Both the position numbers and the translations under genes were made by a program. 64,000 nucleotides of DNA from Glaciihabitans sp. INWT7 (GTDB lineage: Bacteria; Actinomycetota; Actinomycetes; Actinomycetales; Microbacteriaceae), in contig NZ_CP043653.1 in the NCBI RefSeq assembly GCF_014217685.1, forward strand, positions 624,419 through 688,418. The letters are read 5' to 3'. Positions 45,246 to 63,910 of this stretch are shown here, piece after piece. A model generated the notes under the pieces. That model was not told where the DNA came from, did not search any database, and saw only the letters and a list, made by a program, of their open reading frames with translations. The stretch's first letter is position 1, and every line of letters begins with the position of its first letter.

Positions 45246-45824
45246 ATGAGATCCAAGTTCCTGCTCGTCATCGGGCTCGCTGTCGGTTATGTCCTCGGAG
45301 CCCGTGCGGGCCGTGAACGCTACGAGCAGATCAAACGGGCGAGCCAGCGACTGTGGCAGAGCCCCGGTGTTCGCAAGACCCGCACCGAGGTCGAGGAGTA
45401 TGCACGCCAGCAGGCCCCGGTAGTGCGCGCGAAGGCCGAGTCGATCGCCAAAGCTACCCCCGCTGCCGTCGCCGACGGCGCGCGTGCCACGGCGGATGCC
45501 GCCCGGGTAGTCGCGGACCGCACCGCAACGGTCGCCACCGACATCGCCGAGCGTGTCTCCAGTGTGGCGAAAGACGTCGCCGGCAAGACGACCACGATGT
45601 CGCGCGATGTTGCCGACCGCACCACCGGGATGGCGAAGGATGTCGCGGATCGCACCACCGAGACCGCCGAGGAGTTTCGGGAGCGCGTCTCGAACACGGC
45701 AGCCGAGCTGCGCGAACGCGGCGAGGAAGCGCGCGATCGTGTCGTGGTCAAGGCAAGCGAATCCCGCGACGATGCCCTCGCCGAACTCGACGACGACGAC
45801 GATGACGAGAATTCCGACCGCTAG
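45246..45824 (+). CDS. YtxH-like membrane-anchored coiled-coil protein
   Basis: A 192-residue protein. One N-terminal helix ends in VLGARAGRERYEQI, the glycine-rich anchor and basic exit seen in YtxH-type proteins. The rest is Ala/Thr/Val-rich amphipathic helix with an 11-residue-like rhythm (DVADRTTGMAKDVADRTTE), as in LEA/apolipoprotein-type helices, ending in an acidic DDDDDD run. It may coat or organise the inner membrane face. A shorter paralogue lies at 58821. Confidence 0.75.
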   Translation: MRSKFLLVIGLAVGYVLGARAGRERYEQIKRASQRLWQSPGVRKTRTEVEEYARQQAPVVRAKAESIAKATPAAVADGARATADAARVVADRTATVATDIAERVSSVAKDVAGKTTTMSRDVADRTTGMAKDVADRTTETAEEFRERVSNTAAELRERGEEARDRVVVKASESRDDALAELDDDDDDENSDR

Positions 45825-46306: not shown

Positions 46307-46445
46307 GTGCGGTTCCCACGGGTGAGGGTGAAGAACGGGTCTACCCCCGTATTGGGGTGAGCACACTAAAGCAGTTGCGGGGGCATGCTGTCCATGCCCC
46401 AACGCGGGGGTGTGGATAACCTGCTCGATCGGGATGCCCAGCCGC

Positions 46446-54821: not shown

Positions 54822-55724
54822 ATGGAAGGCGAGTCGCGGGTCTCCGGAGAGCTGAAGCTGCTCGCGGATCCGACCCGAGCGCGCATTCTCGGGCTCATCA
54901 TGGAGAGTCCGGAGGGCAGGCGCTCGGTGGGCGAGCTCGCGCTCACGCTGGGGCTGCGCCAGCCGACGGTGAGCCATCACCTGAAGGCGCTGGTGGATGA
55001 AGACCTGGTGATCCGCACCCCAGAGGGCCGCGTCGCCTGGTATTCGATGCATCCGGATCGGGTCGATCGTGTCGCGGAGGTGCTCGACCCGCCTCGCTCC
55101 ACGGAACGGGCCGAGGCCGTGCTCGAGAGGATCTCGACCGATCTCGCCGCACGATTCGCGGGGGTGTTCGGGCCAGAGACCGTCGAACGGTACGTGCGAG
55201 AGAGCCACGCTCTCCTCTACGAAGGCGAACGGAACACGAAGTACCTCCCCTCGCTCACCTCTCGCTTCGCCGCGGACCGGCTGTCGGCGTTGGCGCGCAC
55301 CGAATCACCCTCCGTCGACCGGGTTCCCGAGGTGCTGTTCGTCTGCGTGCAGAACGCGGGCCGATCTCAGATCGCGGCGGCGATCCTGCGCCATCTGGCC
55401 GGCGACGCCGTGCGGGTGCGCACGGCCGGATCTGCGCCAGCCGATGCCGTGAGGTCGGTCGTCATCGCGTCCCTCGACGAGATCGGAGTGCCGATCGGCG
55501 GTGAGTTCCCCAAGCCGTTGACGGACGAGGTCGTGCGAGCCGCGGACGTCGTCGTCACGATGGGCTGCGGCGACGCCTGCCCCATCTACCCGGGCAGGCG
55601 TTACCTCGATTGGGACCTCGACGACCCGGTGGGCCTGCCGATCGGTCGGGTGCGGGGCATCCGGGACGATATCGAATCGCGGGTGCGGGAACTCCTCGTG
55701 TCGCTCGCGGTGAATTCCGACTGA
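54822..55724 (+). CDS. ArsR-type HTH fused to LMW-phosphatase-like arsenate reductase
   Basis: A 300-residue fusion. Residues 1-90 are an ArsR winged helix (LKLLADPTRARILGLI, RQPTVSHHLKALVDEDLV). Residues about 95-165 are a three-helix dimerisation segment. Residues 168-298 are an ArsC/LMW-PTPase fold with CVQNAGRS (Cys175-x5-Arg181) and a later GCGDACP and WDLDDPVG. The HTH part has no cysteine at all, so the usual As(III) site is absent. The enzyme would reduce arsenate with mycothiol/mycoredoxin by family analogy. A free ArsC follows at 55799. Confidence 0.87.
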   Translation: MEGESRVSGELKLLADPTRARILGLIMESPEGRRSVGELALTLGLRQPTVSHHLKALVDEDLVIRTPEGRVAWYSMHPDRVDRVAEVLDPPRSTERAEAVLERISTDLAARFAGVFGPETVERYVRESHALLYEGERNTKYLPSLTSRFAADRLSALARTESPSVDRVPEVLFVCVQNAGRSQIAAAILRHLAGDAVRVRTAGSAPADAVRSVVIASLDEIGVPIGGEFPKPLTDEVVRAADVVVTMGCGDACPIYPGRRYLDWDLDDPVGLPIGRVRGIRDDIESRVRELLVSLAVNSD

Positions 55725-55740
55725 ATTGTCTAACAACTGC

Positions 55741-55760
55741 GTCATCAACTGATAGATGAC
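55741..55760 (+). promoter_or_regulatory. inverted repeat GTCATC-N8-GATGAC upstream of arsC
   Basis: A perfect 6-bp inverted repeat 39 bp before the arsC start, with size and place suitable for an ArsR-type dimer operator. Confidence 0.45.
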
Positions 55761-55798
55761 GGTCTATGCTTTCGGTGTCGCCGAAAGTAGGGAATTCC

Positions 55799-56209
55799 AT
55801 GGCCGAGAAGCCGACAGTCCTGTTCGTCTGCATCCATAACGCAGGTCGATCGCAAATGGCCGCCGGGTACATGCGCGAGCTCTCCGGGGGTGCCGTCGAG
55901 GTGCGCTCCGGCGGGTCGGAACCGGGAGACCAGATCAACCCGATGGCGATCAAGGCGATGGCAGAGGAGGGCATCGACATCTCCCAGGCTGTGCCCCAGC
56001 TCATGACCACCGAACAGGTCAAGGAGTCCGACGTGGTCATAACGATGGGTTGCGGCGACGTCTGTCCGATCTTCCCCGGCAAGCGCTACGCGGACTGGGA
56101 GCTGACTGACCCGAAGGGCAAGCCCATCGACGAGGTGCGCCCGATCCGCGACGACATCAAAGCCCGCGTTCAGGCGCTGCTCGCCGAGCTGCTGCCCGCC
56201 TCGGGCTGA
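55799..56209 (+). CDS. arsC: arsenate reductase ArsC, LMW-phosphatase type
   Basis: A 136-residue enzyme. CIHNAGRS gives the Cys11-x5-Arg17 oxyanion loop; Cys85 and Cys89 lie in TMGCGDVCP, and DWELTDP carries the acid Asp. Arsenate would be reduced to arsenite through a mycothiol or thioredoxin cycle. It is highly similar to the C-terminal domain of the preceding gene, suggesting duplication. GGGA precedes ATG 55799. No arsenite efflux gene is in the window. Confidence 0.92.
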   Translation: MAEKPTVLFVCIHNAGRSQMAAGYMRELSGGAVEVRSGGSEPGDQINPMAIKAMAEEGIDISQAVPQLMTTEQVKESDVVITMGCGDVCPIFPGKRYADWELTDPKGKPIDEVRPIRDDIKARVQALLAELLPASG

Positions 56210-58820: not shown

Positions 58821-59021
58821 ATGAGAATCAAGTACGTGCTGATCGTGCTCGTCGCCTTCGCCGCCTACGTTCTGGGGGCAAAAGCGGGCGAAGACCGGTA
58901 CAAAGAGATCACCCATGCCGCAACCAAGTACTGGAATGACCCGAAGGTCAAGAAGGCCCGCGCCAAGGCGAAGAAGGCACGGAACAAGGCCGCGAAGGCC
59001 GCTCGCAAGAAATTCAGCTAG
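58821..59021 (+). CDS. small YtxH-like membrane-anchored basic protein
   Basis: A 66-residue protein. One helix (MRIKYVLIVLVAFAAYVLGA) is followed by KAGEDRYKEI and a Lys/Ala-rich tail (KKARAKAKKARNKAAKAAR). The first 30 residues parallel those of the gene at 45246 (VLGARAGRERYEQI), so the two are paralogues. The basic tail could touch nucleic acid or acidic lipids. GGAGA is 6 nt before ATG 58821. Confidence 0.72.
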   Translation: MRIKYVLIVLVAFAAYVLGAKAGEDRYKEITHAATKYWNDPKVKKARAKAKKARNKAAKAARKKFS

Positions 59022-59087
59022 CGAGCGTTAACCACCCGTTCTGGGGTATTCCGCACTAGAGACAAGCTCGGCACTGCGGAGGTACAG

Positions 59088-59117
59088 TTGAGCCAGATGC
59101 AGGGGGCAACACAAACT
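59088..59117 (+). promoter_or_regulatory. promoter for the 59123 small-RNA candidate
   Basis: TTGAGC (59088-59093), 18-bp spacer, CAAACT (59112-59117). The predicted start near 59123-59125 falls exactly where the first predicted helix begins. Confidence 0.5.
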
Positions 59118-59122
59118 CTGGG

Positions 59123-59248
59123 TCTCCTGAATATCGTGTGTCGAGCGCGGGGGCGCTTTTGGCACGATGACTCAGGTTTGCCTCGGTTCGGGAATCGAGT
59201 CTAAACCCCGATCGCCGCCGCTCTTCGGAGCGGCGGCGATCAGTGTTT
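59123..59248 (+). ncRNA. structured small RNA candidate
   Basis: No protein frame is credible in this 415-bp gap (59022-59435). The 125-nt segment folds into three successive elements. The first is CCTGA/TCAGG and ATCGTG/CACGAT capped by AGCGC-gggg-GCGCT (59126-59176). The second is GGTTT/AAACC enclosing CTCG/CGAG (59175-59207). The third is a 14-bp GC stem with a TTCG loop (59210-59241). A promoter precedes it and the last stem acts as terminator. It does not match tmRNA, SRP RNA, RNase P or 6S RNA that I know. 59250-59435 holds a short direct repeat and nothing else that I can see. Confidence 0.6.
59210..59241 (+). terminator. intrinsic terminator with UUCG loop
   Basis: GATCGCCGCCGCTC (59210-59223), ttcg, GAGCGGCGGCGATC (59228-59241): a perfect 14-bp stem followed by agtgtttaa. 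Confidence 0.8.
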
Positions 59249-59250
59249 AA

Positions 59251-59278
59251 CGGGCCACTGTTTAGCGGGCCACTGTTT
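59251..59278. repeat. 13-bp direct repeat, 15-bp period
   Basis: CGGGCCACTGTTT occurs at 59251-59263 and 59266-59278, immediately after the terminator. Confidence 0.7.
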
Positions 59279-59435
59279 GACTGGCAACGAACCGGCAACG
59301 CCGGTGATTAGTGACCCGCGGATGCCTCGGCTCAACGACGTCAAGATACTGCCACGGGCATGCAGGAGTCATCGACTTTAGAGCGGGTGACGCTTCCGGC
59401 GTCGAACGCGCGTCAACGCTCGCCGAGCGGACCGC

Positions 59436-59861
59436 TCAGGCGGCCTTGCGCGGCTTGAACATGCGGTGTTCGTCGTGCTGGTCGTCGACGACGACGACGT
59501 CAGCCTCGGCCGGCGCGGGAGCGGTGGACCAGTCGACGGATTCGACGGTGATCTCTTCCTCGACTGCCATCTCTTTGAGCACAGGGGTCTGGGCGTCTTC
59601 GACGCTCTCGGGGCCGACCTCGGCGAGCTCGACGGCGGCGCGAGGCGCGGCGATCTGGTCGGCGATGTCACGGGCGATGTATTCGGAGATCGTCTCGCCG
59701 AAGAGCGAGTCGGTGTCGGTGCTGGCGCGGAACTGCAGTGTCCACATGCCACCCGCCCCGACGGCCTTGAGCAATCGCTCGCGCACCAGGTCGAAGACGA
59801 GTTCTTCGAGCTCTGCCGACTCCTCGGGCGAGATCGTACGACTGTGCGTGCGTGATTCCAT
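59436..59861 (-). CDS. hypothetical acidic protein
   Basis: A 141-residue acidic soluble protein that I do not recognise. The N-terminal half is helical (EESAELEELVFDLVRERLLKA), with a strand-like MWTLQFRASTDTDS. The C-terminal half is Glu/Val/Pro-rich and ends with a basic MFKPRKAA. ATG 59861 directly follows GTG 59864; either could start the protein. There is a terminator hairpin upstream (59949-59977), so it has its own promoter. Confidence 0.6.
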   Translation of the reverse strand: MESRTHSRTISPEESAELEELVFDLVRERLLKAVGAGGMWTLQFRASTDTDSLFGETISEYIARDIADQIAAPRAAVELAEVGPESVEDAQTPVLKEMAVEEEITVESVDWSTAPAPAEADVVVVDDQHDEHRMFKPRKAA

Positions 59862-59948
59862 CACGACTCACCCTTCAAGTTCAGGTTGATAGTTTGCCCA
59901 GTATGCGCCCGACCCCTCGAACAGGGCCGATGACACGCCGACACGGAA

Positions 59949-59994: not shown

Positions 59995-61536
59995 CTACTT
60001 GGTGAAGACCTCGTCCTCCATCGCGTCATACCCCTCGGCCTGGGGGTCGCCGTGGAGGCCGCCGCTGAGGGCGTATTCCTCCTCCGGCGAGAGCACGAGC
60101 CGATTGCGCCCGACGAGGGCGAAGATGGCGAGCCCGACGACGAAGATGATGACGAAGGTGATCACCGCGAGGTTGAACGTGGGGTTCGCCACGATGCCGA
60201 CGAACGCCGCGATGGCGATGATGCCGGCGACGACGGCGCCGACGATGCCAGTCGGGCTCTTGTAGGGGCGCTTGGCGGCGGGATACCTGCGGCGCAGCAC
60301 GATGAAAGAGATCATCTGCATCACGTAGGAGATGACCGCGCCGAAGACCGCGATGAACAGGATGATGCCGGTGGCGGCACCCGCGGCATCCGGGTTGACC
60401 GCCGGGATGACCAGCGCGACGACGACGAGGATCACGAAGCCGATCGCTCCTCCGACGAGGAGTGCCACCCAGGGTGTCTGGTGCTTCTTGCCGGTGAGGG
60501 AGAGGAACTTCGGGTAGTAGCCGGCGCGGGAGAGCGAGTACATGTTGCGTCCGTAGGCGAACATGATGCCCTGCAGCGACGCGAGCAGCCCGATGAGGGC
60601 GAAGAGCGCGAGCAGCGCGGCCACGCTGTCGGGCAGGAATGCGCGGAAGCCGGCGAGCAGAGGTTCGTCACCGTCACCCGGCGAAACCGTGAGGGCCTTC
60701 GAGCCCGTCACAGCGGGGTTCAGGAAGAGGATGAGAAGCCCGAAGAAGGCAAGGGTGATGATGCCCCACACTCCCGCGCGCGGGATGTCCTTCGCCGGGT
60801 TCTTGGCCTCCTCCGCCGCCAGTGGCAACTCCTCGATGCCGAGGAAGAACCAGATGGCGAACGGCAGCGAGAACAGGATGCCGATGCCTCCGAAGGGCAG
60901 GAAGCTGGAGTTGCCGGTCGTCGGGGCGATGTCGAACAGCCGGGAGAAGTCGACTGCGCCATTGGCGATGGACAGCACCGCGAAGAGCAGGATCACTGCC
61001 ATCGAGATGATCGCGACGATCAGGGCGAATCGGAATCCGACCGATGCCCCCAGCGAGTTGAGGCCGATGAAGACCGCATAGAGGATGATCCACAGCAGCC
61101 AGGCCGGCACCTCGGCGCCGGTGAGGTCTGTGATGATCTGCCCGGCGTAGGCGGCCGAGAACAGCACGACCACTGCTGTGGTGACCACGTATTCGATGGA
61201 CTCGGAGATGCCGGTGACGAATCCTCCCCACGGTCCCATCGCCGCTCTGGCGAAGGAATACGCTCCGCCGGTGTGCGGCATCGCGGCGGACATCTCTCCG
61301 ATGGAGAAGATCATGGTGAAGTACATGATCACGATGACGATGGTGGCGATGAGCAGGCCGCCCCACCCCGTGGTCGCGAGGCCGACGTTCCATCCGGAGA
61401 AGTCGCCGGAGATGACGGCGGCGATCCCGATGCCCCAGAGGCCCCAGAATCCGGCTGTGCGTTTGAGGCTTCGTTTCTCGAAATAGCCGTCTTCGGCTTT
61501 CGTATAGGTGACGCCGGAGACCGTGTTCTTTGACAT
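59995..61536 (-). CDS. APC-superfamily permease, ethanolamine permease-like
   Basis: A 513-residue transporter with about 12 membrane segments. GIGIAAVISGDFSGWNVGL is the entry motif of ethanolamine permeases of the APC group. MYFTMIFSIGEMSAAMPHTGG and EELPLAAEEAKNPAKDIPR are further family signatures. It would import ethanolamine or a related amine by proton symport. It is divergent from the glutamine-synthetase-like gene, with which it probably forms one pathway. Confidence 0.88.
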   Translation of the reverse strand: MSKNTVSGVTYTKAEDGYFEKRSLKRTAGFWGLWGIGIAAVISGDFSGWNVGLATTGWGGLLIATIVIVIMYFTMIFSIGEMSAAMPHTGGAYSFARAAMGPWGGFVTGISESIEYVVTTAVVVLFSAAYAGQIITDLTGAEVPAWLLWIILYAVFIGLNSLGASVGFRFALIVAIISMAVILLFAVLSIANGAVDFSRLFDIAPTTGNSSFLPFGGIGILFSLPFAIWFFLGIEELPLAAEEAKNPAKDIPRAGVWGIITLAFFGLLILFLNPAVTGSKALTVSPGDGDEPLLAGFRAFLPDSVAALLALFALIGLLASLQGIMFAYGRNMYSLSRAGYYPKFLSLTGKKHQTPWVALLVGGAIGFVILVVVALVIPAVNPDAAGAATGIILFIAVFGAVISYVMQMISFIVLRRRYPAAKRPYKSPTGIVGAVVAGIIAIAAFVGIVANPTFNLAVITFVIIFVVGLAIFALVGRNRLVLSPEEEYALSGGLHGDPQAEGYDAMEDEVFTK

Positions 61537-61640
61537 GCATTCCTCCAGGAGGGGATCGTCGGGAGCCGGGCGCGATGAGCCACCGCGTCACGCTTACCGG
61601 AGAGCATGGCGTTTATTGGTACTTCGTGTCTACCTTTGGA

Positions 61641-61658
61641 TGTAAACAGTGCATTACA
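61641..61658. promoter_or_regulatory. operator candidate TGTAA-N8-TTACA
   Basis: A perfect inverted repeat in the 190-bp gap between the divergent permease and ligase genes. TAGGAT nearby (61664-61669) is a possible -10 for the rightward operon. Confidence 0.5.
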
Positions 61659-61728
61659 CGCCCTAGGATCGGGATCGTGCCGCCGTGATGCAATGGTCGG
61701 CAAAAGCTCGAGAAGACGAGGAACCCCC

Positions 61729-63096
61729 ATGGCCGCTCGCACGGGAATGCTCACTACCGACCAGCTCAACGCCCTCATCGACGAGGGCGCGATCGACACC
61801 GTGATCGTGGCGTTCACCGATATGCAGGGGCGACTCGTGGGTAAACGGGCATCCGCCCGCCTGTTCAAGGAGGAGATCAGCAGCCACGGCGCGGAGTGCT
61901 GCAACTACCTGCTCGCGGTCGACGTCGAGATGAACACCGTCGACGGGTACCGCATCTCCTCGTGGGAGAAGGGCTACGGCGACATGGCGATGATCCCCGA
62001 CCTGTCGACGCTCCGACTCGTGCCGTGGATCCCGGGCACCGCCCTCGTGATGGCCGACCTCACCTGGCTCGACGAGCGACCGGTCGACCCGGCTCCCCGT
62101 GAAATCCTGAAGAAGCAGATCGCGCGCCTCACCGAGAAGGGCCTCGTGCCCTACGTCGGCACGGAACTCGAGTTCATCGTCTTCGACAACAGCTACCGGG
62201 ATGCCTGGAGCAGGGGCTACGTCGGACTCACCCCGGCGAGCGATTACAACATCGACTACGCGTTGCTCGCCTCGACGCGTATGGAGCCGTTGTTGCGGGA
62301 CATCCGCGTCTCGATGGAGGGTGCCGGGCTCTACTGCGAGGGCGTGAAGGGAGAGTGCAACCTGGGGCAGCAGGAGATCGCCTTCCGCTATGAGGACGCG
62401 CTCACCACCTGCGACAACCATTCGATCTACAAGAACGGCGCGAAAGAGATCGCCGACAAGCACGGCAAGGCGCTCACCTTCATGGCCAAGTTCAACGAGA
62501 AGGAGGGCAACTCCTGCCACATCCACATCTCGTTCCGTGGCGCGGACGGATCCGCCGTTTTCGCCGATGACACCGACACTCTCGGCATGTCGAAGATGTT
62601 CCGCCACTTTCTCGCGGGGCAGTTGAAGACCATGCGCGAGCTGACTCTGTTCTTCGCGCCGAACATCAACTCCTACAAGCGCTATGTCGATGGCAGCTTC
62701 GCCCCGACCGCCGTCGCCTGGGGGCTCGACAACCGCACCTGCTCACTTCGCGTGGTCGGGCACGGCCTCGGGATGCGGGTGGAGAACCGGGTGCCCGGCG
62801 GAGACGTCAACCAGTACCTCGCCACAGCGGCGCTGATCGCCGGCGGGTTGTACGGCATCGAGCACGAGCTGGAGCTCGAGCCGATGTTCGAGGGCAATGC
62901 CTACGGCAGCGATGCCCCGCGAGTGCCGACGACACTTCGGGAGGCGGCTGAGCTGTTCGGCCAGTCCGAGATCGCCCGTGAGGCCTTCGGGGCGGATGTC
63001 GTGGAGCACTACCTCAACAACGCGCGCATCGAGGTTCAGGCCTTCGATGCCGCCATCACGGACTGGGAGCGGGTGCGCGGCTTTGAGCGTTTCTGA
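61729..63096 (+). CDS. glutamine-synthetase-like gamma-glutamyl-amine ligase
   Basis: A 455-residue member of the glutamine synthetase superfamily. VGTELEFIVFD carries the metal-binding Glu pair, NLGQQEIAFRYEDALTTCDN and GNSCHIHISFRG are the ATP/Glu site, and NRVPGGDVNQYLATAALIAGG is the C-terminal signature. It lacks the adenylylation Tyr region of GlnA1. Beside an ethanolamine-type permease and a PuuD-type hydrolase it probably joins glutamate to ethanolamine or a polyamine, as shown for Streptomyces GlnA4/GlnA3. GAGGAA precedes ATG 61729. Confidence 0.88.
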   Translation: MAARTGMLTTDQLNALIDEGAIDTVIVAFTDMQGRLVGKRASARLFKEEISSHGAECCNYLLAVDVEMNTVDGYRISSWEKGYGDMAMIPDLSTLRLVPWIPGTALVMADLTWLDERPVDPAPREILKKQIARLTEKGLVPYVGTELEFIVFDNSYRDAWSRGYVGLTPASDYNIDYALLASTRMEPLLRDIRVSMEGAGLYCEGVKGECNLGQQEIAFRYEDALTTCDNHSIYKNGAKEIADKHGKALTFMAKFNEKEGNSCHIHISFRGADGSAVFADDTDTLGMSKMFRHFLAGQLKTMRELTLFFAPNINSYKRYVDGSFAPTAVAWGLDNRTCSLRVVGHGLGMRVENRVPGGDVNQYLATAALIAGGLYGIEHELELEPMFEGNAYGSDAPRVPTTLREAAELFGQSEIAREAFGADVVEHYLNNARIEVQAFDAAITDWERVRGFERF

Positions 63097-63910
63097 AAAC
63101 ACGGCTGATGCAAACCCGACGTCGCAGGCTCCGTCGGCGCTGGCGTCGCGTGATCGCTGGCGCGATCACCAGAGCTCCAGCGCGCCCGTGATCGGGCTCA
63201 CCACCTACCTCGAGCAGGCACAGACCGGCGTGTGGGACGTGCAGGCCGCCTTCCTGCCGAAGGTCTACTTCGAGGCGATCACCCGTGCGGGCGGCATCGC
63301 CGTGCTCCTCCCGCCGCAGCCCGTCTCCGCGGAGATCGCTGAGCGGGTGCTCGACGGGCTCGACGGCCTGCTGATCACCGGCGGTAAAGACGTCGACCCC
63401 GCCCGGTACGGCCAGGAACCGCATCCCACCACGGACACGCCGCGCACCGACCGGGACGCGTGGGAGGATGCGCTGCTCACCGCCGCGATCTCGCGCGAAC
63501 TGCCATTCCTCGGCATCTGCCGCGGCGCCCAGGTGCTCAACATTGCGCGCGGCGGCACCCTGCACCAGCACCTGCCCGAGATCATCGGCACCGACAAGTA
63601 CCAGCTCGGCGGCGGCACCTTCGGTCAGGTGGACGTGGAGGCGGAGGCCGACAGCGCGGTCGGACGACTCGTGGGCACCGATCCCCTCGAGGTAGCGGTC
63701 TACCACCACCAGGCGATCGACCGCGTGGGGGACGGGCTCCGCGTGACCGCGCGCACGGAAGACGGCGTGATCCAGGCGGTGGAACTCGAGGGAGTGCCGT
63801 TCGGGGTGGCCGTGCAGTGGCATCCGGAACAGACCGGCGATGATCTCCGGCTCTTCGCCGGCCTCGTGCAGGCTGCCCGGGACTACCATCGCGCGGAGGC
63901 CACCCGATGA
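63083..63910 (+). CDS. gamma-glutamyl-gamma-aminobutyrate hydrolase-like class I amidotransferase
   Basis: A 275-residue PuuD-type peptidase C26. Nucleophile Cys146 lies in GICRGAQVLN; His247 and Glu249 in VQWHPEQTGDD complete the triad. It would cleave the gamma-glutamyl bond of the oxidised product. TTG 63083 is the likely start, overlapping the ligase gene by 14 bp; the core domain begins at PVIGLTTYLEQA. Its stop overlaps the next start as ATGA. Confidence 0.85.
   Translation: MSVSENTADANPTSQAPSALASRDRWRDHQSSSAPVIGLTTYLEQAQTGVWDVQAAFLPKVYFEAITRAGGIAVLLPPQPVSAEIAERVLDGLDGLLITGGKDVDPARYGQEPHPTTDTPRTDRDAWEDALLTAAISRELPFLGICRGAQVLNIARGGTLHQHLPEIIGTDKYQLGGGTFGQVDVEAEADSAVGRLVGTDPLEVAVYHHQAIDRVGDGLRVTARTEDGVIQAVELEGVPFGVAVQWHPEQTGDDLRLFAGLVQAARDYHRAEATR

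Follow-up and report, generated by a model that had tools for sequence, protein, structure and literature searches.

Comparison of related genomes indicates that a separate, single-copy, non-coding sRNA gene of about 154 nt lies at 59095–59248 on the + strand of the window (the whole 64,000-nucleotide stretch of Glaciihabitans sp. INWT7 DNA analysed here), and that it is neither an mRNA leader, a 3′ UTR nor a small-protein gene. As read from the same comparison, its parts are a −10 promoter with a helically phased upstream palindrome, three selected hairpins (P1–P3) and a long hairpin, P4. The 5′ end is placed by its distance from the −10 element and the 3′ end, at about 59248, by the terminator hairpin; covariance models match the RNA once per genome in 10 of the 13 genus genomes. 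An independent sRNA gene was the original prediction, and both the compensatory stem changes in relatives and the lack of an Rfam match support it. As in sRNA genes generally, a conserved promoter and terminator of its own bound a conserved structure, and the sequence is non-coding, its ORF being unconserved.

Genomic setting of the RNA gene

The RNA lies in a gap without protein genes, as originally described, which measures 414 bp (59022–59435). A G+C content of 66% and the gene content suggest a Microbacteriaceae-like actinobacterium. Upstream of the gap, a small-protein gene on the + strand ends at 59021; downstream, a 142-aa gene on the − strand ends at 59436 and is thus convergent. The immediate neighbours in the window are a flotillin/SPFH gene, the small protein (no Pfam match), the orphan 142-aa protein and an amino-acid permease, and no same-strand gene directly follows the sRNA there. 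Among genomes, the upstream genes vary: flotillin/small protein, an ABC-transporter-type protein, aldolase-like or enoyl-CoA-hydratase-like (names assigned by eye, flotillin excepted). The permease is found downstream of the RNA in 8 genomes, with the convergent gene in at least 7 of these (tblastn). In G001 and G002 the permease/convergent gene order is lost and no longer adjoins the RNA, which is itself retained. Wherever they are readable, the downstream genes are convergent.

What kind of gene is this? Because the ORF is unconserved, the upstream neighbours vary and the downstream genes are convergent where readable, we read the locus as an independent non-coding RNA. A cis-regulatory leader, riboswitch or attenuator would likewise be a structured RNA with a terminator hairpin at its end, but the next downstream gene in the window is encoded on the opposite strand; in the 7 other genomes where they were located, this convergent gene or the permease again follows the RNA, and Rfam has no riboswitch match. 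We give this reading next to no credence. The locus might also be no separate transcript at all but just the 3′ UTR or bidirectional terminator that divides the upstream + strand gene from the convergent one, as its site between two converging ends and the symmetry of P4 would suggest. This seems very unlikely, given that the palindrome, −10, spacing and stems stay while the upstream genes vary and that conservation covers promoter elements. Finally, a leaderless or near-leaderless ORF of 35 aa runs from 59097 (MQGATQTLGLLNIVCRARGRFWHDDSGLPRFGNRV), its ATG 2 nt past the predicted RNA start in the window's genome, and leaderless translation is common in actinobacteria. An ATG at this position is nevertheless present in 6 of the 10 genomes and missing in 4, the peptides (35, 24, 10, 10, 18 and 4 aa) share neither sequence nor length among diverged genomes, and selection acts on base pairs; a small-protein gene is extremely improbable.

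The convergent 142-aa protein (59436–59864, − strand) has no Pfam or NCBIfam match; tblastn detects relatives in 11 of the 13 genus genomes, plus weak ones in three other genera, and their genes usually adjoin the permease and converge on the sRNA. The genes at 59995–63910 encode an ethanolamine-type amino-acid permease (its match falls below the NCBIfam cut-off), an enzyme resembling glutamine synthetase and a Peptidase_C26 hydrolase; together they look like a pathway that gamma-glutamylates polyamines or ethanolamine. The proteins encoded at 58821–59021 and 45246–45824 (both + strand) have a similar N-terminus, MRxKxxLxxxxAxxYVLGAxAGxxRYxxI, and the longer one has a sub-threshold YtxH-like match. 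At 54822–56209 (+ strand), a fusion of an ArsR-type helix-turn-helix with a low-molecular-weight phosphatase (arsenate-reductase-like) precedes a stand-alone LMWP protein; arsenic resistance is the likely role.

Promoter, palindrome and terminator

All 10 genomes carry a −10 element of the form TANNNT (TACAGT at 59083–59088, + strand, in the window) that ends exactly 6 nt ahead of an [A/G]GAU start; TGN precedes it in 9 of them, the window's own copy being the exception. Because the conserved −10 lies at this position with a fixed 6-nt gap, the RNA probably starts near 59095, at the first pair of P1. A possible weak −35, GAGACA (59059–59064, + strand), was read by eye, and GAGACA or AAGACA occupies this place in G000, G003, G002 and G001 only. 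A sigma-70 scan found no promoter in the region. The promoter first proposed, TTGAGC (59088) with CAAACT, is not conserved: its implied −10 (about 59111–59116) is not kept in the homologues, and TTGAGC overlaps the conserved −10 box. The start, formerly put on the first pair of the nested hairpin, moves to 59095 since the conserved promoter sits 30 nt upstream.

Conservation peaks at the −10 and at a palindrome, ACCCGTTCTGGGG (59034–59046, + strand), where identity reaches 0.69 in surroundings otherwise near 0.3. Centred at about −55 and reading CCCC-N5-GGGG in most relatives, the palindrome is a probable transcription-factor site. Eight genomes have CCCC-N5-GGGG at −60/−61 from the RNA start and the other 2 have it at −50, closer by one helical turn. 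Such spacing suggests that a protein binds the DNA on a constant face of the helix. RamA-type operators of Corynebacterium contain A/T/C-GGGG-N and A/T/C-CCCC-N motifs (PMC4847777), and the palindrome fits this loose motif, which is too short for specificity. Genome-wide, a palindrome-related pattern gave 58 matches vs 60 in the reversed control, and a genome-wide regulon was rejected for want of enrichment. Two more CCCC-N5-GGGG palindromes, CCCCGTATTGGGG (46345–46357) and CCCCAACGCGGGG (46397–46409), lie in a divergent intergenic region of the window downstream of secA. The first continues into CACACTAAAGCA, a sequence that closely resembles the sRNA promoter context GCACTARAGACA; both are possibly under the same regulator as the sRNA.

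P4, at the other end of the gene (59210–59241, + strand), is a perfect 14-bp hairpin, GATCGCCGCCGCTC-TTCG-GAGCGGCGGCGATC. All homologues have a long GC hairpin 3′ of P3, with a variable loop, and conservation across the 10 homologues extends to 59244, then drops to 0.18 just after and to less than 0.12 further on. The UUCG-loop terminator of the original prediction stands as a perfect, conserved hairpin, but one that lacks a strong U-run (its tail is AGUGUUU) and was not listed by a terminator scan of the region. The symmetric P4 may also end the convergent gene. In each of the 6 genomes that match exactly, the pattern of the conserved P4 arms is confined to a single place, the sRNA locus; P4 is thus not a dispersed repeat.

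Hairpins, selection and distribution

In the fold, the RNA begins with P1 (59095–59125, + strand), which is closed by AGAU/GUCU around a G-rich interior, AGGGGGC, whose G-run is partly paired. This extra 5′ hairpin had been overlooked, and the length once given as about 125 nt is corrected to about 154 nt. With 86% of cells paired and 2 pairs changed on both sides, P1 is the weakest-supported hairpin. The nested hairpin that had been described is present at 59126–59176 (P2, + strand) and is built from CCUG...CAGG, AUCGUG...CACGAU and GCGC-GGGG-GCGC; its GGGG loop (59149–59152) lies inside an invariant 10-mer, CGCGGGGGCG, 96–100% of cells are paired and 6 pairs are changed on both sides. The second hairpin is likewise there, at about 59182–59199 (P3, + strand), with a CGGG loop (59189–59192; CGGG or CGGGNN across homologues) in a conserved UCGGG[A/U], 90% of cells paired and 6 of 8 pairs changed on both sides. 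On this comparative evidence, P2 and P3 are the best supported hairpins. The RNA 59120–59248 folds at −69.3 kcal/mol vs −48.4 ± 3.8 for shuffled sequences (z = −5.5), none of 200 being as good. For most of 7 sequences tried, single-sequence folding gave P1, P2 and P3 in that order, with P1/P2 detail varying; the minimum-energy fold of the G009 copy differs.

Is this structure under selection? Across the 10 homologues, 93% of the cells in the 30 modelled pairs form standard pairs, a percentage that leans upward since the alignment was fitted to the structure. Changes on both sides affect 14 of the 30 pairs (27 such cells). The covariation score was 0.399 vs 0.215 ± 0.019 in shuffles, a value reached by none of 500, and structures slid by 1–3 columns gave 35–46% paired and covariation scores of 0.05–0.10. 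The −10, the [A/G]GAU start and the terminator, although outside the model, are present in 10 of 10 genomes. We infer that the folded shape, the promoter and the terminator are kept by selection in most genus genomes; the stems persist in relatives with compensatory changes, the check that the original prediction had proposed.

How widespread is the RNA? BLASTN with the gap, run on 40 genomes, gave matches in 9 from the genus (that of the window among them) and in none from the 27 other genera represented. A first covariance model, built from 5 homologues and limited to P1–P3 so that promoter and terminator could serve as independent checks, found three copies outside its training set, in G007, G009 and G011 (E = 1.3e-9, 1.7e-8 and 8.8e-5). 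The tenth copy, in G008, was recognised from a palindrome, loop and terminator next to the conserved convergent gene; a second model, which like the first was built without it, scored it at E = 7.7e-4, the next best match in that genome being 1.5. All homologues score E = 7.7e-4 or better, with one good match per genome. The RNA is absent from G012, G006 and G005. In the 99%-complete G012 the convergent gene is present with no copy of the RNA next to it, so the RNA is not essential.

Covariance searches returned nothing convincing outside the genus, either in 40 family genera (one genome each, permissive filters) or in 300 family and 396 order genomes, where stricter filters lose weak matches; very diverged relatives may have escaped. 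Weak model matches in the family and order (E 0.09–1) were discarded: by eye, they did not show the −10, palindrome and loops in this arrangement. Scanning named genomes with a pattern proved too loose, and those 31 of its loci that were rescanned with the model had only chance scores. A promoter-plus-loop pattern run on 400 family genomes recovered 6 genus homologues and 4 other matches, the reversed control giving 2; the 4 others (1 in the own genome, 3 in other genera) show no P1 G-run by eye and were put down to chance. Neither the phage nor the plasmid collection held a match that would suggest such an origin. The RNA family appears restricted to the genus.

Known RNA families and proposed mode of action

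At the locus, no Rfam 15 family reached its gathering threshold; up to E = 5 there were only chance matches far below the gathering score. This search agrees with the initial failure to assign a known family, and the RNA forms a new family within an established kind of sRNA. 6C RNA (RF01066) is an actinobacterial sRNA whose C-rich loops are thought to be contact sites. Like it, the present RNA is an actinobacterial sRNA encoded between genes, with several hairpins and homopolymeric loops; its loops, however, are G-rich where those of 6C are C-rich. The 6C model had no match at the locus or in the 13 genus genomes, in a genus search that also missed the cut-off in control genomes; 6C RNA as a partner was rejected, there being no 6C match in the genus. 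ANTAR-target RNAs are also tandem stem-loops and common in actinobacteria. They are marked by a pair of hexaloops with A1 and G4, and many of them are parts of mRNA leaders (PMC8164766); in contrast, the present loops are GGGG and CGGG (CGGGNN in some homologues) and the downstream gene is convergent.

What is the mechanism of such an RNA? The best explanation, which we hold with somewhat better than even confidence, is a single-copy sRNA gene with a palindrome-controlled promoter that acts in trans through G-rich hairpins. A factor binding CCCC-N5-GGGG would set promoter activity, and the housekeeping sigma factor would transcribe from an activator-assisted promoter of the extended −10 type. 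Action in trans is the least certain part: the near-invariant G-rich segments of P1 (GGG), P2 (GGGG) and P3 (CGGG) would be displayed in hairpins as contact sites, and would base-pair with C-rich parts of their target mRNAs to alter translation or stability. Contact with C-rich RNA is the most economical reading because only the three G-runs are constant apart from pairing. The adjacent permease and convergent gene were rejected as pairing targets, since a crude duplex test against their 5′ regions, which ignores accessibility, gave z-scores around zero.

The three G-rich hairpins could instead titrate or modulate a protein, like CsrB/RsmY, or like 6S/Ms1 for RNA polymerase. Each hairpin has an invariant or near-invariant G-run while the stems covary, the loop sequence seems more constant than diverse mRNA targets would predict, and the invariant G-rich segments could equally bind protein. 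CsrB/RsmY-type titrating RNAs also repeat a short G-containing motif in several hairpins; here, however, the motif is GGG(G), not ANGGA, there are three hairpins only, and they do not all carry a CsrA-type GGA loop (P2 has GGGG, P3 CGGG). Like Ms1/6S RNA, the present sRNA is a single-copy, intergenic, independently transcribed structured actinobacterial RNA (its transcription being predicted). Ms1 has a 6S-like fold, is longer and neighbours a HAD hydrolase (PMC9130861), whereas the present RNA, shorter than the described Ms1 RNAs, comprises three separate hairpins and a terminator, not the single long hairpin of a 6S-like rod, and lies beside the permease and the orphan protein. We regard a protein-binding RNA, the chief alternative, as unlikely, if worth keeping in mind.

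Pairing in trans remains our preferred reading. In its full form, a genus-specific sRNA family that works via three G-rich hairpins under a CCCC-N5-GGGG regulator not yet described, the proposal is tentative and rather more doubtful than not. We found little literature on small RNAs in Microbacteriaceae-type actinobacteria. If true, the RNA would be a mirror image of the C-rich-loop sRNAs in a lineage without a 6C RNA match, and the family comes with predicted promoter, regulator site, 5′ end, structure and terminator together.
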